Source: a virus. Taken from it: a DNA stretch of 31,090 nucleotides. Shown one piece after another: positions 3,233-15,962 of this stretch. The notes below the pieces were generated by a model. The model had not been told where the DNA came from and did not search any database. It saw only the letters and a program-made list of their open reading frames with translations. The first letter of the stretch is position 1; each line of letters opens with the position of its first letter. Both the position numbers and the translations under genes were made by a program. The stretch is taken from positions 1-31,090 of the IMG/VR virus record IMGVR_UViG_3300042455_000551. One strand, 5' to 3'.

Positions 3233-3290
3233 TGCCCGGAGCGGGATTTGAACCCGCAAGAAGTTGCCTCCCGGGGGGTTTAAGCGCCCT
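3233..3290 (-). other. attP: attP core: 3' half of a tRNA-Leu(TAA)
   Basis: On the minus strand this reads as the 3' half of a class II tRNA. It has the anticodon loop CTTAAAC (3284-3278, anticodon TAA), the 3' anticodon stem CCCCC, a long variable arm with stem GGAG/CTTC and loop GCAA, a T-arm GCGGG-TTCAAAT-CCCGC (3257-3241), an acceptor strand TCCGGGC (3240-3234) and the discriminator A. There is no matching 5' half (GCCCGGA is absent), and the 5' anticodon stem no longer pairs fully. This is what a phage attachment core restoring a host tRNA-Leu gene looks like. Crossover is likely in or near the anticodon loop. Confidence 0.85.
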
Positions 3291-3327
3291 CTACACGTTC
3301 AAGGGGCACATGGGATTAGAGGCCCCC

Positions 3328-3368
3328 GGTACACCATTTGGTACACGAAAAAGGCCGATTTGTGTACC
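3328..3368. other. Integrase arm-type sites, second cluster
   Basis: GGTACAC at 3328-3334 and 3340-3346 repeats the 12-base spacing of the int-side pair, and an inverted copy GTGTACC lies at 3362-3368. It sits about 45 bases from the tRNA-like core on the side away from int, as expected for the opposite P arm. Confidence 0.7.
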
Positions 3369-3536: not shown

Positions 3537-3610
3537 ATCGCGCGATTGGCCCCTGTGTGGCCCGTAGAGCGCCTGCCAAGATCGTCGCCGGTAGTTGCGC
3601 CACAACGCAG

Positions 3611-3652
3611 AAGATCCCCCGCCGTGGCCTATTGGCACTAGCGGGGGATCTT
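3611..3652. terminator. Bidirectional terminator ending the late unit
   Basis: AAGATCCCCCGC (3611-3622) and GCGGGGGATCTT (3641-3652) form a perfect 12-bp stem with an 18-base loop. It lies about 100 bases downstream of the holin stop on the minus strand and before the attP region, so it most likely ends late transcription. The T tract is short. Confidence 0.75.
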
Positions 3653-3753: not shown

Positions 3754-4020
3754 TCAGAGAATCTCTGAGCCTGGAGGGATGGTGGCGTTCACTGGCAGCG
3801 TGAGCAGCGAGGTGCTGCCCTTGTCGCCGATGCCAGCCGAAGCGATCGAGCTCAGAAGACTGAGCACGCCAGCGGTGGCGGCGGTGCCGGCGATGGCTTG
3901 CCAATCGGCGGTGAACCAATCGAAGGTGGTCGCAGCCAAGACGGCGATGAGCGCCTGGGCGACTGTCTTGATCGCGCGCTCGGCGGCTGACTTCCAGAAG
4001 GTTGCGGTGAACATGGTCAT
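3754..4020 (-). CDS. r1t-type holin
   Basis: An 88-residue membrane protein. The N-terminus MTMFTATFWKSAAERAIKTVAQ has the FW-x4-ER-x-IKT-x-AQ signature of the r1t holin family (known family pattern). It is followed by two hydrophobic segments, about residues 20-36 and 40-63. The C-terminal tail is polar, ending in a proline-containing segment. Holins gather in the inner membrane and open it at a set time so that the endolysin can reach the wall. The ATG at 4020 overlaps the preceding stop (ATGA), with CAGGAG just upstream. It is the last gene of the late unit, five genes after the endolysin, rather than directly beside it as is usual. Confidence 0.88.
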   Translation of the reverse strand: MTMFTATFWKSAAERAIKTVAQALIAVLAATTFDWFTADWQAIAGTAATAGVLSLLSSIASAGIGDKGSTSLLTLPVNATIPPGSEIL

Positions 4021-4559
4021 GGCTCCTGTGTTGATTGGGTGAGAACGGTGAAGGGTTCGCAGACCGATGTGGAATGCAGAGCTGCTGAATAGAGCGCCAT
4101 CTGCACTCGAGCTTCGGGGTCACCACTGGTCGAGGCCAGCGAACCGAGGGCGAAGTGATCGCCGCAGCCGATGGCTTCGTAGCCAAGGGCAGAGCGGCCG
4201 ACGTGGTAGTCCTCGTCGATGCAGTAGAGAGCGCCCCGATAGCCGACCAGGAACACTCCCCCGCTGTCTTCGTTGTCGCTGCTCTTGGCGAAGCCTCCCT
4301 GGTGGAAGAGCTTGCGGCAGGCGTCGACGAAGACGGTGCAGAGGTGCGTCATGTCGTCATCGGTGATTTGCTTAGGCACCTTGAGTCGGTACTGCAGCAG
4401 CTGGCCCATGCGGAACGAATCGCAGTAGCCGATCAGATACTCACCAACGGTGAAGACCTTGGGGTCGGTGTAGCGGGTGATGCGAGTGTCTTCGACTGCA
4501 GCGGCGTCGCCGCCGATGATGACGGTGCCGTCATGCTCAAGGCCGACGATGCAGGTCAC
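4017..4559 (-). CDS. Proteasome/HslV-like Ntn hydrolase
   Basis: A 180-residue protein starting at GTG 4559, which overlaps the previous TGA. After removal of Met1 the new N-terminus is Thr1 (TCIVGLEHDG). Asp17 (GGDAA) and Lys33 (DPKVF) then fall at exactly the numbers of the catalytic Asp17 and Lys33 of proteasome beta subunits. Further along, AIGCGDHFALGSL at about 128-140 matches the HslV/proteasome GSG loop, but with Cys131 replacing the usual Ser. The fold and an N-terminal threonine nucleophile are therefore likely, and the substrate is unknown. HslV partners with an unfoldase, and none is encoded here. It sits directly before the holin, in a place more typical of lysis or host-takeover genes than of protein quality control. 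Self-processing or peptidase activity is inference. Confidence 0.8.
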   Translation of the reverse strand: MTCIVGLEHDGTVIIGGDAAAVEDTRITRYTDPKVFTVGEYLIGYCDSFRMGQLLQYRLKVPKQITDDDMTHLCTVFVDACRKLFHQGGFAKSSDNEDSGGVFLVGYRGALYCIDEDYHVGRSALGYEAIGCGDHFALGSLASTSGDPEARVQMALYSAALHSTSVCEPFTVLTQSTQEP

Positions 4560-4798
4560 GACTCACGCTTCCAGAGGTAGGCGTTGCGAAGGTGCACGAC
4601 CATCCACACGCAGGCGAGGACGGTAAAGGCGGGCCGCGGTTGAGGTCCGAGCGTTGAGTAGACGAGAAAAGGCACGCCGGTCAGTGATGCGGTCAGGCAC
4701 CAGCCCCACCAGATGCGACGCTCGATGACGAGCGCGTAGACGCCGAGGCCAGCCAGATCGCAAGCGAGAATTAGCCACGTCCAGACCTGCTCACTCAT
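4556..4798 (-). CDS. Small membrane protein with three hydrophobic segments
   Basis: An 80-residue protein starting MSEQVWTWLILACDLAGLG. Hydrophobic segments are at about 5-24, 28-50 and 58-72, the last rich in V and W, with a basic tail (WKRES). The ATG at 4798 lies 8 bases inside the preceding DUF6378-like gene, and its TGA overlaps the GTG of the Ntn hydrolase. Small membrane proteins close to the holin can be second holins or antiholins. That role is possible here from position, but no family is recognised. Confidence 0.7.
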   Translation of the reverse strand: MSEQVWTWLILACDLAGLGVYALVIERRIWWGWCLTASLTGVPFLVYSTLGPQPRPAFTVLACVWMVVHLRNAYLWKRES

Positions 4799-5153
4799 CG
4801 TCGAGTTCGTCGAGGAAAGCGACTAGCGAGTCTTCCATTGCTTCGTCGCTGGCGTCAGCCCAGACGGCGTAGAGGCAGTCTGCGTAGCCGGCGAGGTCGA
4901 CGATCGAGTCACGCACCATGTCAGCGGTGAACTGCTGATCGAGTGCGTTGCCGATGCGCGAGAGCTTGACGCTCAGCATGAAGGCGACTGCCTCAGGCAC
5001 GCTGAGAGTGACGCCAGTGATCGCTTCAAAGATCTCAGCGGTGCGGCCGTAGTCCACGCTTGGGTGGTTATAGAGCGCACCTCGTGGCCCGTGGCAAAGT
5101 GCGTTGGCTTCGGCGGTGACAGAGTCCCAGAGCGGTCCTGGCTGAGTGTCCAC
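4791..5153 (-). CDS. DUF6378-like phage protein
   Basis: A 120-residue soluble protein. The run ALCHGPRGALYNHPSVDYGRT, followed by AEIFEAITG, VAFMLSVKLSRI and DSIVDLAGYADCLYAV, matches my memory of the DUF6378 pattern (HGxRGxxYxHPxxDFxRTAxIWxAILG...KLSR...DxxxDxAGYAxxxxxV) seen in many actinophages. The conserved His, Asp and Tyr residues suggest metal or nucleotide binding similar to MazG-type folds, but no activity is established to my knowledge. The start is GTG at 5153 with AGGAGG 5 bases upstream, the clearest ribosome-binding site in this part of the window. The acidic tail ends LDELDDE. Confidence 0.75.
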   Translation of the reverse strand: MDTQPGPLWDSVTAEANALCHGPRGALYNHPSVDYGRTAEIFEAITGVTLSVPEAVAFMLSVKLSRIGNALDQQFTADMVRDSIVDLAGYADCLYAVWADASDEAMEDSLVAFLDELDDE

Positions 5154-5175: not shown

Positions 5176-5988
5176 TCAGTAGATGTGAGAGGTGAACTTG
5201 GCGAGGCTGACGCCTTCGTAGCGACGGCACAGATAGTCGAGGCTGACGAACATGGGGTCGTAGCTGCCGTCTTCGACCTGGTGCTTGACGATCACGCCAC
5301 GCCAGTGAGCGTTGCCTTGCGGCCCCTTGTAATCCTCGTCATGCAGATAGCAAGCGCCGGCGATGAGTCCGTGATGGCTTCGACCGGCGACGAACCTGAT
5401 GGCGTAGTCGAGTGTCTGCTGGTGGCCCATTGTGAAGGTGTGGCCGATCTGCTTGAGTCGACCTGCCGCTGCGCCGCCCAATGGGCGGCCACTCATCGGC
5501 TGGACATACACATGGCAGTAGCCGACACCATCGATGAACACTGGCTCGAGGTAGCGATGCACCTGCCAGCCGTGCGCTTCGTAGTTGAGATCGTCGGTAG
5601 AGATGAGGCCGTGCAGCTTGGGGTCATCGTTCGTTGCCCGGTTGATGCGGTCCTCATGGTTGCCGAGCGTCAGATGCAGCTCGGGCTTGTAGAGCTTGTC
5701 TTTCACCTTGCGCTGGTGATCGTTGAAGCGCTCAAGCGGTGCGCACAGAATGTCGAAGGCTTCGTTGGCTGCTTCGATGTCATCGTTGTAGCGGCGACCC
5801 TCGAAGGATCGCTTGCCGATGTCGTAACTGCTGAGGCTTGGCATGTCGGCATGGTCGCCAAGGTGCACCACTACGTCGGGCTTGCGCTCGATTATGTAGG
5901 CACCGATCCACTCGAGGTGGGCAGTCGGGACTCCTGGCTTGGCTTGCGTGTCAGGAATGACTAGGTGCGTGCGCGTTGAATCAGACAT
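5176..5988 (-). CDS. Calcineurin-like metallophosphoesterase
   Basis: A 270-residue enzyme with the ordered metallophosphoesterase motifs: LVIPDTQ near residue 13 (first metal-binding Asp), VVHLGDHADM (GD motif), LTLGNHED (GNH motif) and later the His-containing MGHQQ and HHGLIAGACYLHDEDY stretches. The family hydrolyses phosphomono- or diesters with two metal ions. Phage versions are common but their substrates are mostly unknown. I start it at ATG 5988 (MSDSTRTHLVIPDTQ) because the longer frame only adds residues overlapping the coiled-coil membrane gene. It lies between the endolysin and holin genes. A role in nucleotide or DNA metabolism, or in tail-lysis modification, is open. Confidence 0.85.
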   Translation of the reverse strand: MSDSTRTHLVIPDTQAKPGVPTAHLEWIGAYIIERKPDVVVHLGDHADMPSLSSYDIGKRSFEGRRYNDDIEAANEAFDILCAPLERFNDHQRKVKDKLYKPELHLTLGNHEDRINRATNDDPKLHGLISTDDLNYEAHGWQVHRYLEPVFIDGVGYCHVYVQPMSGRPLGGAAAGRLKQIGHTFTMGHQQTLDYAIRFVAGRSHHGLIAGACYLHDEDYKGPQGNAHWRGVIVKHQVEDGSYDPMFVSLDYLCRRYEGVSLAKFTSHIY

Positions 5989-6016
5989 GCAGTCGCCCGT
6001 CTGTGGAGGGAAAGAA

Positions 6017-6346
6017 CTACCAGCGACGCTTGCCCCGATGGTGCACAGCCTCATGGCGGTGCAGCTCGTCGGTGACAGCGTCGAAGCGTGCGTCGACCTT
6101 GGCGTCGACGGCACGAACATCGCCGCCGATCTGTTTCACGTCGCCGATCAGTTCGTCGAAGCGTTCGTTGTTTGAGCGCAGATTCTGGTCGTGCTGGTCA
6201 CGGTTCTCGGTGCGCAGTCTTACGACCTGCACGACGAGTGTGGTGATGGCACCGAGCACAAGCGTGATGCCGGTGAGGATTGCGACCCACTCGGCAGCGC
6301 CGAAGCCGGGACTGTCGCTGATGGCCGTCGAGGCTTGGGCGAGCAT
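6017..6346 (-). CDS. Membrane-anchored coiled-coil protein (DUF2746-like)
   Basis: A 109-residue protein. One strong transmembrane segment at about residues 18-42 (EWVAILTGITLVLGAITTLVVQVV) is followed by a basic stop-transfer stretch and about 55 residues of heptad-rich helix (DQHDQNLRSNNERFDELIGDV region onward). The tail is histidine- and arginine-rich. The plan resembles DUF2746 proteins found near the lysis genes of mycobacteriophages, which may assist lysis. The start is ATG 6346, four bases after the endolysin stop. A GTG at 6385 in the same frame would overlap the endolysin by 35 bases. Confidence 0.7.
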   Translation of the reverse strand: MLAQASTAISDSPGFGAAEWVAILTGITLVLGAITTLVVQVVRLRTENRDQHDQNLRSNNERFDELIGDVKQIGGDVRAVDAKVDARFDAVTDELHRHEAVHHRGKRRW

Positions 6347-6350
6347 GGCA

Positions 6351-7217
6351 CTAACTGCGACCGGCGTTGATATCTGACCAAGCACTCCAGCCGCCGCCAG
6401 GGGTGATCTGATGCGATTGCCAGAGACCGCCAGCAGCGGTGACTGTTACTCGCAAGCGACCGTCGCTGAGCTTCTCGGCAAAGAGGTTTGAGCCGGCGAT
6501 GCCGCCCATGACTTCGACCCATGGCCCAACCTTGCCGCCAGGCTTTGAGGCCCAAGCGTGGACCGCTTGACCGCCAGAGGTAAGAGCGAACCATTCCTCG
6601 CGGCCGTCGGTGTTGATGAGTTTGAACATGTCAGCCTCGCTAGATTCGGTGGGCGTTGGTGCCGGTGGGGTTGGTTGGCCGACGATCGCTTCGACAAGAA
6701 GCTGATCGAGAGCTGCACGATCGGGATGGCGTGACCATGCGTCGGAGCGATCCCAGGGTTGGACATCGCCGTGGCAGAACAGACCGGGACGGTTGAGAGC
6801 GTCGGTGCCGATCCATTGAGCGTTCGCTGCTGGATCGATTCCGAGGAATCCCCACAGGGCACGGATGGCTTCGCCTGCTCGAGCGATCATTGCTTGGGTG
6901 TTGGCATCGTCGGGGCTGAGATCAGCGCTGCGACCGGCGAGACAGATGTGCCAGGTGCGCGAGTTGTAGCCAGAGGCGGCGACGCTGAAGGTGGTGAAGC
7001 TAGGCGGAACTAGCACGACCGTTTCTTCGCTGTCGACGATGCAGGCATAGGAGCCGGGATCGCTGCGTCGAGCAATGAAGCCGGCAAGGTTGCGCGCGCT
7101 GCCTGGTCCGGTCGGACCCTCAGAGGTGTGCACGCCGATCGCATAGGTCGGCGTTGCGTTCCTTGAGGGATAGAACTGCGGCGACGCCGGTGGATTGTCG
7201 AGCAGGTAGTAGCCCAT
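6351..7217 (-). CDS. lysA: Endolysin: N-acetylmuramoyl-L-alanine amidase with C-terminal wall-binding-like domain
   Basis: A 288-residue protein. Residues 1-165 form an amidase_2/PGRP-like domain with candidate zinc ligands His30 (AIGVHTSEG) and His149 (LFCHGDV); His90 is also nearby. This class cuts the bond between muramic acid and L-Ala. A Pro/Thr-rich linker (about 170-186) leads to a C-terminal domain with repeated Trp/Gly motifs (EEWFALTSGGQ, GGLWQSHQITPGGGWSAW), resembling sugar-binding propeller-blade repeats. There is no signal peptide, so export depends on the holin. The ATG at 7217 overlaps the tail gene stop as TGATG. The separate placement of the holin five genes later is unusual. 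Confidence 0.9.
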   Translation of the reverse strand: MGYYLLDNPPASPQFYPSRNATPTYAIGVHTSEGPTGPGSARNLAGFIARRSDPGSYACIVDSEETVVLVPPSFTTFSVAASGYNSRTWHICLAGRSADLSPDDANTQAMIARAGEAIRALWGFLGIDPAANAQWIGTDALNRPGLFCHGDVQPWDRSDAWSRHPDRAALDQLLVEAIVGQPTPPAPTPTESSEADMFKLINTDGREEWFALTSGGQAVHAWASKPGGKVGPWVEVMGGIAGSNLFAEKLSDGRLRVTVTAAGGLWQSHQITPGGGWSAWSDINAGRS

Positions 7218-7852
7218 CAGCCCGGTGCGCCGGATGGGCCGATGTCTTCGACGGTCATGTTGACGTTTTCGAGTGTGGAGATTTGTGCGGAAACACCAGC
7301 AGTGCGAGCCAGTGTGAGAAGGATTGTGTAACTGCCAGCGGCGATTGCCCGAGAACCCATCACATGAACATTTAGTTTTGTCTGACCAGTACCGAAAACA
7401 ATGTTTCCACTCCACCAAACCGTTCCAGTGGTGCTGTTCTCGCGAATACGCATTGTGTAACTATCGCCGGCAGTTGCGGTGATTGTTGTTGAGATGCTGA
7501 CCCGGTAGAACCGATTGGCGAGAGCAGTGAAAGAGCTACTTGTAAAGACTGCCGTTTCAGTTGTGCCGGACGTGGACGTGCCGGGTCCGGTTCCTTGCGC
7601 CCTAACCATCAGACCCCACGGAGCGTTCCAGCCTGGGCCCTTACGCCAGTTCGTTCCGTTGTAGGTGTAGAGACCCTCGTCGGCGTCGTTGCTGCCGATG
7701 TAGGCAACCATGCCGTCTTCGGGTTCGGTGAGCGCAGTGTCGCGTGCGGTCGTCGTCGCGAAATACATGACGCCCTGCTCCATCAGGTAGTTGTTGACAT
7801 CTGATGCAGTTAGTACCGCGCCAGCGGTGAATGCTTTGTAGCCAGAACCCAT
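7217..7852 (-). CDS. Minor tail / receptor-binding tip protein
   Basis: A 211-residue protein. Its N-terminal segment MGSGYKAFTAGAVLTASDVNNYLM, followed by RDTALTEPEDGMVAYI and LYTYNGTNWRKG, is the pattern that many actinophage tail-fibre proteins use to introduce a distal domain. The rest is Thr/Ser/Gly-rich beta structure without cysteines, as expected for a trimeric fibre or a carbohydrate-binding tip. It is the last structural gene before the endolysin, the usual place of the host-range determinant. AGGAGG lies 8 bases before the ATG. Its codon use is slightly AT-richer than its neighbours, which is common for exchangeable tip genes. Confidence 0.75.
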   Translation of the reverse strand: MGSGYKAFTAGAVLTASDVNNYLMEQGVMYFATTTARDTALTEPEDGMVAYIGSNDADEGLYTYNGTNWRKGPGWNAPWGLMVRAQGTGPGTSTSGTTETAVFTSSSFTALANRFYRVSISTTITATAGDSYTMRIRENSTTGTVWWSGNIVFGTGQTKLNVHVMGSRAIAAGSYTILLTLARTAGVSAQISTLENVNMTVEDIGPSGAPG

Positions 7853-13562: not shown

Positions 13563-14158
13563 TAGGCGACGACCGGATTGCGATACGGGCGCAGCATGCG
13601 CTCAACATCGGGATCAATTGCGCGCACGGTGATGGCTCCGAGATCGCCGAAGCCGGCGACGCCGAGCAGCGAGTCGCCACGCTTCACGAGTCGACCAGCC
13701 AGGAGGATGCACGCCGAGGTAACTGGCGAAGGTACTGATGGCCATCCCCACTTGGCAGTGACCTGCAGGTAAGCCGGTGCGGCGGTGGTGAGAAAGTAGA
13801 ACCCGATCGAGCGAATCGACGTGATCGGTGAGCCCTTGGCCAGTGAGTTGACTGGCTCGAGCTGATACTGAGAAGCGGTGAGTGTCGTGGCGTAAGTGCC
13901 GTCACCAGCCGAGTCGGTCTTGATTACCAGGCCAGTGGTCGTGGAGATGTCGTCGACCATGACGAGATCTTCGACCGGTGGAACATAGAGCCGAGCGGTT
14001 GCTGCAGCGTCGGCATAGAAGCGACGGTCGCAGTGCTGATCGATCACTCGCGAGGCTTCGGTGATGCGTGCCTCGAGCATGGTGTCGTCGACGTTGTCAT
14101 TGATGCGCATCACGCTCTTGAGCTCAGCGAGGGTGCAGTAGCCGTTGGTGATGGCCAT
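13562..14158 (-). CDS. gp6-like head-tail connector
   Basis: A 198-residue protein starting MAITNGYCTLAELKSVMRINDNVDD, followed by RITEASRVIDQHCDRRFY. The alternation of 'YC(T)L-ELK...' and 'I-AASR-ID-CGRRF' is typical of the HK97-gp6/adaptor family that forms the ring under the portal. A beta-rich middle follows (LVIKTDSAGDGTYATTL), then a C-terminal helical region (PVTSACILLAGRLVKRGDS). It is joined by TAATG to the methyltransferase gene upstream. In most relatives it directly follows the capsid gene cluster. Here the two modification genes intervene. Confidence 0.82.
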   Translation of the reverse strand: MAITNGYCTLAELKSVMRINDNVDDTMLEARITEASRVIDQHCDRRFYADAAATARLYVPPVEDLVMVDDISTTTGLVIKTDSAGDGTYATTLTASQYQLEPVNSLAKGSPITSIRSIGFYFLTTAAPAYLQVTAKWGWPSVPSPVTSACILLAGRLVKRGDSLLGVAGFGDLGAITVRAIDPDVERMLRPYRNPVVA

Positions 14159-14685
14159 TAGATTCTCCAGACGCGGACATAGCCGCGGACGATTTCGTTA
14201 GCGCCATGCTCGGCAAGGAACCACGCAACCTCTGAGCCTTTGCCCTGGTCGTCTTCGTTGTCGTCGACTGCGACGATCGAGCCAGGGGCCAGCAGGTTGA
14301 GAGCTGCCATGAGTTCGCTGAGGTGATGAGCTGCAGCTGGCTGCGGGTTCTCAAAGTCCACATCGAACGAGTCGAGGTAGAGAAAGTCGCAATGGCCGCT
14401 GAGCGTTGGGATCACATCGAGTGAGTCGCCGACGATTGCGGTCGTTGCTTGCAGTCCGAGTTCGGCGACAAGTTCAGCACCGAGTGGATTGATGTCGATG
14501 GTGGTGACGGTGCCGCCGAGGTCGGTGGCGAGTGTGTCCCAGACGATCGTTGACTGGCCGTCGCCTGTCCAGTTGCCTAGGTCCCTGACGGTGCCGGTCT
14601 CAACGATGCGACAGCCTTCGCGCAGCAGCTCGGCGATGGTGGCGAATGCTTCGTGCCTTTTGCCGAGCCGGTCCCAGGCGATCAC
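14158..14685 (-). CDS. SAM-dependent methyltransferase (CmcI-like)
   Basis: A 175-residue Rossmann-type enzyme. Motif I is CRIVETGTVRDLGNWTGDGQ (Glu29, Gly31), motif II is VTTIDINPLGAE (acidic end of strand 2), and FLYLDSFDVDF is a motif III/IV acidic strand. The order and lengths fit small O-methyltransferase/CmcI-type enzymes acting on sugars or small molecules. The GTG at 14685 is chosen because it overlaps the glycosyltransferase stop as GTGA, and the longer frame would intrude into that gene. Being coupled to a glycosyltransferase inside the head module, it could methylate a sugar that the partner attaches. This is inference. Confidence 0.78.
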   Translation of the reverse strand: MIAWDRLGKRHEAFATIAELLREGCRIVETGTVRDLGNWTGDGQSTIVWDTLATDLGGTVTTIDINPLGAELVAELGLQATTAIVGDSLDVIPTLSGHCDFLYLDSFDVDFENPQPAAAHHLSELMAALNLLAPGSIVAVDDNEDDQGKGSEVAWFLAEHGANEIVRGYVRVWRI

Positions 14686-15962
14686 TTCGCCATCAGTTCG
14701 TCGATCTCGGCGAGCACTGGCAGCCAATACTTGTCGAAGACGATCTTGTTGTCGTAGGTCTCAGCGTGTGCTCGAGCAGCAGCCTTTCGGTCTGCGTCTC
14801 GGGCGGTGTCGTAGGCGTGCTCAAGTTCCTCGAGCACTGAATGCACCAGCGGTGTGGCGAACCATGAGGTCTGCAGTGCGTCCCAATAGGGCTGCACTGA
14901 GACGAGGTAGCCGTGACCTTCGACAAGCTCAGGCTGAGCGGTGAAGTTGGACACGATCGAGGGCACGCCACAGGCGGCGGCTTCGATGACTGGAACGCCG
15001 AACCCTTCGCCACGAGAGGCAGCAAGGTTGACATCCATCGCGCTCATCAGACCTGCCAGCACGAATGGCGGCAGACCTGCGTAGTAGGCCCACTGGTCAG
15101 TCCAGACGATGCGGTTCTCAGGGATACCGCAAGCGCCTGCAAGTTGGACGAGATCCACGCCGCCTTGTGCGCCACGTTTCTCGGTGTGCATGTAGACGTA
15201 GACATCGTCATGGCTGGCCATGAACTGGCCGAGCGCCAGCAGGTTCTCGCCCCACGCTTTGCGCATGGGTGCGATGCCCTTATTGGCAGCGACGATTCCG
15301 ACCACGAATGCGTCGTCGGGGATCTTGAGAAGTTGGCGACCTGTCGCACCGTCGACGGTTGCGCCTGGTCGGAAGACTGTGGTGTCGACGCCGTGTGGAA
15401 TGTAGCGATGGTCGACGCCGGCAGCCTCGAGCATGCGTGCGCCGAACTGCGCCATAGCGATCGGCAGCACATTGTCTCGGCGGCACCATTCGAGAACGTC
15501 TGGCGGTGCGGGCGTGTGATCGATTGGCACCCATGACGCAATGACTTTGATGTCGCTGACGTTTGCTGCCTTGTAGACCCAAGCGTCGAAGAGTGTGACT
15601 AGGGCTGTGGGTCGACTGGTTTGTTCTTGGGAGTATTTGACATGCGCGCCGACGATGTCGGCTGAGTAGGGGTGGGAGCCGGTCGGGAGGACTTCGATGC
15701 CTTCCCATTCGGTGATGAAGCCTTGCGTGCCGTAGTTGTTGGAGAGGGTGATTGGTCGGCCGGTGGCTTTGATTTGGCGCGCGACTTGCGCGGTTTGGAC
15801 GCCGTAGCCGGTGCCTGCTCCTGCGAAGTTTGAGTGCCAGCAGATTCCTGCACGGGTGTCGCCACTGACGCTTCGACTAGGTACTGCGCCAGGTACGGAG
15901 GTAACTCGACCTCTGTGTTGCGGATTACCACCCACATGTGAATTGCCCCGTCTCTTGCCCAT
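14682..15962 (-). CDS. GT-B fold glycosyltransferase (GT4-like)
   Basis: A 426-residue enzyme. From about residue 38 it reads as a GT-B protein: ICWHSNFAGAGTGYGVQ is the N-terminal acceptor-side loop, VVGIVAANKG starts the C-terminal Rossmann half, and LAASRGEGFGVPVIEAAACG is the EX7E-type donor-binding motif (EGFGVPVIE). It transfers a nucleotide-activated sugar, with the acceptor unknown. AGGAG lies 6 bases before the ATG at 15962, so I keep this start although residues 1-37 are low-complexity and unlike other glycosyltransferases. The first 340 bases overlap another plausible frame. Placement between capsid and connector points to modification of virion proteins, but host-surface modification is also possible. 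Confidence 0.88.
   Translation of the reverse strand: MGKRRGNSHVGGNPQHRGRVTSVPGAVPSRSVSGDTRAGICWHSNFAGAGTGYGVQTAQVARQIKATGRPITLSNNYGTQGFITEWEGIEVLPTGSHPYSADIVGAHVKYSQEQTSRPTALVTLFDAWVYKAANVSDIKVIASWVPIDHTPAPPDVLEWCRRDNVLPIAMAQFGARMLEAAGVDHRYIPHGVDTTVFRPGATVDGATGRQLLKIPDDAFVVGIVAANKGIAPMRKAWGENLLALGQFMASHDDVYVYMHTEKRGAQGGVDLVQLAGACGIPENRIVWTDQWAYYAGLPPFVLAGLMSAMDVNLAASRGEGFGVPVIEAAACGVPSIVSNFTAQPELVEGHGYLVSVQPYWDALQTSWFATPLVHSVLEELEHAYDTARDADRKAAARAHAETYDNKIVFDKYWLPVLAEIDELMAK
15599..15937 (-). CDS. Small head-module protein overlapping the glycosyltransferase in another frame
   Basis: A 112-residue frame, ATG 15937 to TAG 15599, in a different register from the glycosyltransferase. Residues 1-34 (MWVVIRNTEVELPPYLAQYL, then VEASVATPVQ) strongly resemble the short proteins often found just after actinophage capsid genes (hydrophobic strand, xELPxxLAxxLV, xAxPV). 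The remaining residues are K/P/S/T-rich, as in their tails. Third-position G+C is higher in the glycosyltransferase frame over the shared part, so that frame is certainly translated. This one may be a genuine overprinted gene, a gene ending by frameshift into the glycosyltransferase, or a remnant. Confidence 0.45.
   Translation of the reverse strand: MWVVIRNTEVELPPYLAQYLVEASVATPVQESAGTQTSQEQAPATASKPRKSRAKSKPPADQSPSPTTTARKASSPNGKASKSSRPAPTPTQPTSSARMSNTPKNKPVDPQP

Follow-up and report, generated by a model that had tools for sequence, protein, structure and literature searches.

We analysed a stretch of viral DNA of 31,090 bp, here called the window, which is an IMG/VR virus record. It encodes an integrase, terminase, portal, S78 prohead protease, HK97-type capsid protein, tape measure protein, endolysin and holin. 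The gene under study runs on the minus strand from a GTG at position 4559 to a stop at 4017 and encodes 180 amino acids. The gene and its neighbours were read as follows:

3754 to 4020, minus strand: r1t-type holin (PF16945, E = 2.1e-19; phrog_443), sharing ATGA with the 3' end of the AAH gene
4017 to 4559, minus strand: AAH-type proteasome-like Ntn hydrolase (180 aa with the initiator Met; mature Thr1, Asp17 and Lys33; GCG loop)
4556 to 4798, minus strand: hydrophobic, probably membrane protein of 80 aa (phrog_14697, E = 1e-6, unknown function), kept upstream in the clade
4791 to 5153, minus strand: DUF6378 protein, same operon as the AAH gene (PF19905, E = 1.5e-8)
5176 to 6120, minus strand: metallophosphoesterase, same operon as the AAH gene (phrog_221, E = 5e-58; true start probably near 5988)
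6017 to 6385, minus strand: small hydrophobic and coiled-coil protein, weakly holin-like (phrog_920, E = 0.001; phrog_1009, E = 6.5e-5)
6351 to 7418, minus strand: endolysin with an N-acetylmuramoyl-L-alanine amidase domain (phrog_12609, E = 3e-10; PF01510 just below the cut-off)

The AAH gene overlaps its neighbours by 4 bp on both sides, with the gene of the 80-aa protein directly upstream (GTGA at the AAH start) and with the holin gene downstream; an earlier sequence-only reading had already placed it next to the holin. Just past the holin there is a long G+C-rich inverted repeat (positions 3609-3651), which, as read from the sequence, is possibly the end of the late operon. Between the integrase and the holin, positions 3239-3330 on the minus strand resemble the 3' end of a tRNA gene and are likely an attP core; ARAGORN detected no whole tRNA there. 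Genes for a glycosyltransferase and a methyltransferase (14158-15962) follow the capsid gene and precede the head-tail genes; their products may serve capsid or surface modification.

Elsewhere in the window we detected a gene for a WhiB regulator (E = 9e-16), and an Rpf-like transglycosylase domain is encoded as well (E = 3e-29). Therefore the window phage, and its clade, probably infect actinobacteria. When we searched for the host in an even sample of 396 genomes, drawn from the phylum to which a Frankia centre belongs, nothing matched apart from the centre itself.

Further, we examined the active site. After removal of the initiator Met, Thr1, Asp17 and Lys33 of the window protein fall exactly at proteasome beta-subunit numbers, as had been proposed, and the motif Gly43-x-x-x-Ser47-x-Arg49 is present. 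An in-frame stop lies one codon 5' of the GTG start, so a propeptide is ruled out. We aligned 153 distinct relatives drawn from viral contigs and bacterial genomes. Position 1 was Thr in 152 of them and Ser in one, position 17 was Asp in all 153, and position 33 was Lys in 152, the remaining row having a deletion. MTCIVGLE was one of the patterns used in the viral and genomic searches and could inflate conservation of the N-terminus. Fewer than half of the rows begin with it, and the rest, found through SFRMGQ-like or other patterns, keep Thr1 after the start codon; thus the search alone does not explain the conservation of Thr1. The SFRMGQ-like pattern, in turn, accounts in part for the invariance of Ser47 and Arg49. 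The GCG loop of the window protein aligns with the GSG loop of HslV in the profile of relatives, which bears out the proposed Ser-to-Cys correspondence. However, the central residue is Cys in 100 relatives, Ser in 43 and Ala in 7, and since Cys is the majority state, the change is not peculiar to this phage.

Codon statistics in the close clade gave a median dN/dS of 0.125 (252 pairs), and the gene is under purifying selection there. This value and the otherwise invariant triad make it extremely improbable that the gene is a degenerate, inactive fossil carried by chance. The one contig that would fit such a view is L019 (2658-3179), a near-identical contig in which an 18-base in-frame deletion removes Lys33; it is either a natural inactivation or an assembly error. 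The sequence-only reading was to fall if the fold proved different or if homologues lacked Thr1 or Lys33, and apart from the L019 deletion neither was observed.

The AlphaFold model of the window protein (pLDDT 92.6, pTM 0.89) folds like a proteasome beta subunit, with helices on either side of two central beta-sheets. Helices H1 to H4 are present (H1 at 49-57, H2 at 69-87), there is no insertion and no S12/H5, and no C-terminal helix follows the last strand (171-174). A fold search of the PDB with this model returned 880 chains at E<=0.001, headed by BPH (beta-proteobacterial proteasome homologue), HslV and 20S subunits. The best match was BPH (E = 1.7e-11, TM 0.81), while TM was about 0.68 for HslV and about 0.7 for 20S beta. 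A profile of 21 relatives matched HslV (5.5e-8), BPH (9.8e-8) and bacterial 20S beta (1e-6) in the PDB. Single-sequence searches were too weak for placement, which therefore needed profile and fold searches: phmmer with the window protein alone reached only E = 0.36 against the PDB, and Pfam PF00227 (Proteasome) scored 13 bits, under its gathering cut-off of 22.4, although 6 of the 21 relatives matched it at E<0.01. The best phage family match was phrog_1040, 'peptidase HslV family' (E = 1.3e-18), and 205 phage records contain a relative. PADLOC assigned no defence family to the protein. Fold, profile and conservation together support the original view of a proteasome-like Ntn hydrolase.

Fuchs, Alva and Lupas described 22 new proteasome-like families in 2021; in phages, group I is represented mainly by AAH and by PPH, which has about 140 residues and lacks H2 (PMC8665760). 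The AAH family is thus already catalogued, which the sequence-only reading had not taken into account. The window protein fits AAH, a label that we set by the published description and taxon distribution and not by comparison with the reference sequence WP_035979212; it is not a new family. As in that description, the model is a compact group-I subunit with H1-H4, without S12/H5 or an insertion, and the protein has Thr1, Asp17 and Lys33, no propeptide and no unfoldase partner among the ORFs scanned. The relatives that we found (in Frankia, Actinoplanes, Streptomyces, rhizobia, myxobacteria, Paenibacillus and phages) agree with the taxon range of AAH (Actinomycetota, Rhizobiales, Bacillota, Bacteroidota and phages). 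The difference is that the window clade probably consists of actinobacterial phages with the gene in a fixed place beside a holin, whereas Fuchs et al. found no actinobacterial phage with AAH and reported for it no suggestive genomic context, no AAA+ partner and no function; many phages carry AAH according to their study (PMC8665760). We found nothing on the function of phage AAH or PPH in the literature beyond that study, and no activity data for any AAH.

PPH, HslV, 20S beta, Anbu and connectase were each rejected on a defining feature. PPH is likewise a phage-borne group-I homologue, but the window protein has 180 residues and the helix at 69-87. BPH is the closest solved fold and also has no known unfoldase, yet its identity to the window protein is 16-24%. 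HslV shares the profile and fold match and the corresponding loop; however, identity is 16-18%, the loop has Cys for Ser, no HslU was found among the window ORFs scanned, and no NCBIfam HslV model matched at E<=1. The name of phrog_1040 implies HslV, which these membership tests do not support. Anbu was excluded by the lack of its long C-terminal H5 coiled-coil helix, as the model ends after strand 171-174. The comparison with HslV, Anbu and 20S beta suggested earlier placed BPH first, followed by HslV and 20S beta. Membership of CPH, a cyanobacterial-type group, is unlikely by group size, because CPH has 27 sequences in nr90 whereas our relatives number several hundred.

Connectase shares the fold and the triad and is a ligase (PMC8665760). 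The window protein might by analogy be a specific Thr-dependent transpeptidase or amidase and not a degradative protease, and the very high conservation of SFRMGQ (partly a search-pattern effect) and PF suggests specificity. On the other hand, the protein keeps H1 (49-57) and H2 (69-87) and lacks the two-helix insertion between S3 and S4 that marks connectase, and its nearest folds are the ring subunits of BPH and HslV. Connectase itself was rejected, and we consider a ligase of this kind unlikely.

Among the window ORFs scanned, a set without some of the small ORFs, there was no unfoldase of the Clp, HslU or ARC type, in keeping with the earlier reading. The sole AAA match was AAA_25, in a primase-polymerase protein. 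It had also been suggested that the protein joins the host 20S proteasome or its regulators. Mixed rings or a decoy could change host protein turnover, and 20S proteasomes occur in many actinobacteria, the group to which the host probably belongs. Nevertheless, the model for bacterial 20S beta (TIGR03690) gave 12.6 bits against a cut-off of 191.9, so that membership was rejected, and in fold the protein comes nearest to BPH and HslV. Some phages that carry relatives infect Bacillota or Pseudomonadota, in which 20S proteasomes are generally absent. We regard such an interaction as very unlikely.

We compared the genomic settings of the relatives. An r1t holin gene lay within 500 bp after the AAH gene in 35 of 40 related contigs (about 60-99% AAH identity). 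The distance was 2.8 kb in L033, and we detected no r1t holin gene in four near-identical contigs. The linkage to r1t holins for which a survey had been proposed thus holds in the window clade, but it is lost beyond it. Relatives of 44-50% identity adjoin terminase, portal, DNA ligase or primase genes. The portal gene adjoins AAH in L141, L147, L148 and L168, the terminase gene in L170, and a gene for a terminase-small-subunit-like protein in L150, while in L142 the terminase large subunit stands on one side and the portal on the other. NAD-dependent DNA ligase adjoins AAH in five members (e.g. L151) and primase in L162. Other relatives lie in DNA-metabolism or unknown regions of large phages, and in Geobacillus virus E3 the gene stands by thymidylate synthase and DHFR. 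Actinomycetia phage DSL-LC01 (L180:5001-5954) encodes a 30%-identical 'ATP-dependent protease subunit' directly before a WhiB gene. In a quick tree, in which many deep forks were weak, the window clade was phage-only (32 rows, SH-aLRT 99) and lay outside the Frankia and Actinoplanes branches. Around the Actinoplanes and myxobacterial copies we detected no synteny, probably since the simple ORF caller performs poorly in high-GC DNA.

These settings bear on a dedicated lysis-regulating protease, which would process or degrade the holin, the neighbouring membrane protein or the endolysin and so set the timing of lysis. The 4-bp overlaps and the holin directly downstream in contigs of down to about 60% AAH identity speak for it. 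Processing of a lysis protein, raised by the sequence-only reading, is nevertheless not favoured, because elsewhere the gene stands by terminase, portal, DNA ligase, primase or thymidylate synthase; the distant holin of L033 and the copies in chromosomal settings and bacterial nif clusters also count against it. Holin adjacency is fixed only in the window clade, and a lysis role is possible there alone; a dedicated lysis protease we consider improbable. From the varied contexts we conclude that the AAH gene is a portable accessory gene, and that lysis is not its general business.

Three contigs carry tandem pairs of AAH-like genes (L040:5454-6576, L045:3243-4948 and L053:5444-6570), with Thr1, Asp17 and Lys33 in both copies. 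One copy of each pair is without the SFRMGQ motif, and the motifs after strand S4 differ. Judging from these sequences, a two-subunit particle (hetero-oligomer) is possible.

An AAH-like gene that is annotated as hypothetical lies between nifQ and iscA-nifS-(nifV)-nifW-fixAB in three Sinorhizobium species (S. fredii, S. americanum and S. chiapasense). On Sinorhizobium plasmids we located it at L177:8001-8546, L189:6001-6546 and L191:6001-6546, in clusters with rpoN, nifQ, iscA, nifS, nifW and fixAB. In Rhizobium tropici (L174) there is an AAH-like gene near nifH. A NifA-type TGT-N10-ACA site and a sigma-54-like -24/-12 element precede each Sinorhizobium AAH gene, and also that of Mesorhizobium amorphae. 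By mononucleotide shuffling, the chance per 350 bases is about 5% for TGT-N10-ACA and 0.15% for the relaxed sigma-54-like element. This suggests that the rhizobial AAH gene may be expressed during nitrogen fixation. Sinorhizobium and Rhizobium probes revealed no nif genes within 6 kb of the Frankia copies; therefore the nif link is rhizobial and not general. It may be new, given that Fuchs et al. reported no suggestive context.

Taken together, we estimate with a probability of about 0.6 that the window protein is a group-I homologue of the AAH kind, encoded by an accessory gene, and acts as a self-compartmentalising peptidase without an unfoldase. Host methionine aminopeptidase would remove the Met and expose Thr1, which would join Asp17 and Lys33 in an Ntn active site of the proteasome type. 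The analogy with BPH and HslV makes a closed ring peptidase of stacked subunits most likely. The same fold also gives split rings (Anbu) and monomeric ligases (connectase), which counts against a ring. As no unfoldase partner turned up among the phage ORFs scanned, the particle would probably act independently of ATP or with a host chaperone. Its substrates would by default be unfolded, damaged or short polypeptides, as has been argued for homologues without an AAA+ partner (PMC8665760). The gene would be an accessory one, found at many genomic positions in phages and some bacteria. In the window clade, where it has become a fixed, translationally coupled member of the late lysis operon, the protein would be expected to be made late in infection, and the steady proximity of a holin might point to a more specific role there than general clean-up. 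We tentatively consider, at low probability, that an unfoldase-free ring in the lysis programme degrades or matures membrane lysis proteins or clears damaged protein just before lysis.

In summary, what is new here is a probable actinobacterial phage-only clade, its fixed position in the lysis operon, the tandem pairs and the Sinorhizobium nif link. AAH proteins are widespread and have no assigned function; a clade with a holin-coupled gene offers a tractable genetic setting, and the relatives in nif clusters provide an independent functional hint. If active, the window protein would add a compact peptidase of the proteasome type for which no regulator is known. A ring serving the lysis programme, if true, would give AAH its first assigned function and would be the first case of a proteasome-like particle with a part in phage lysis.
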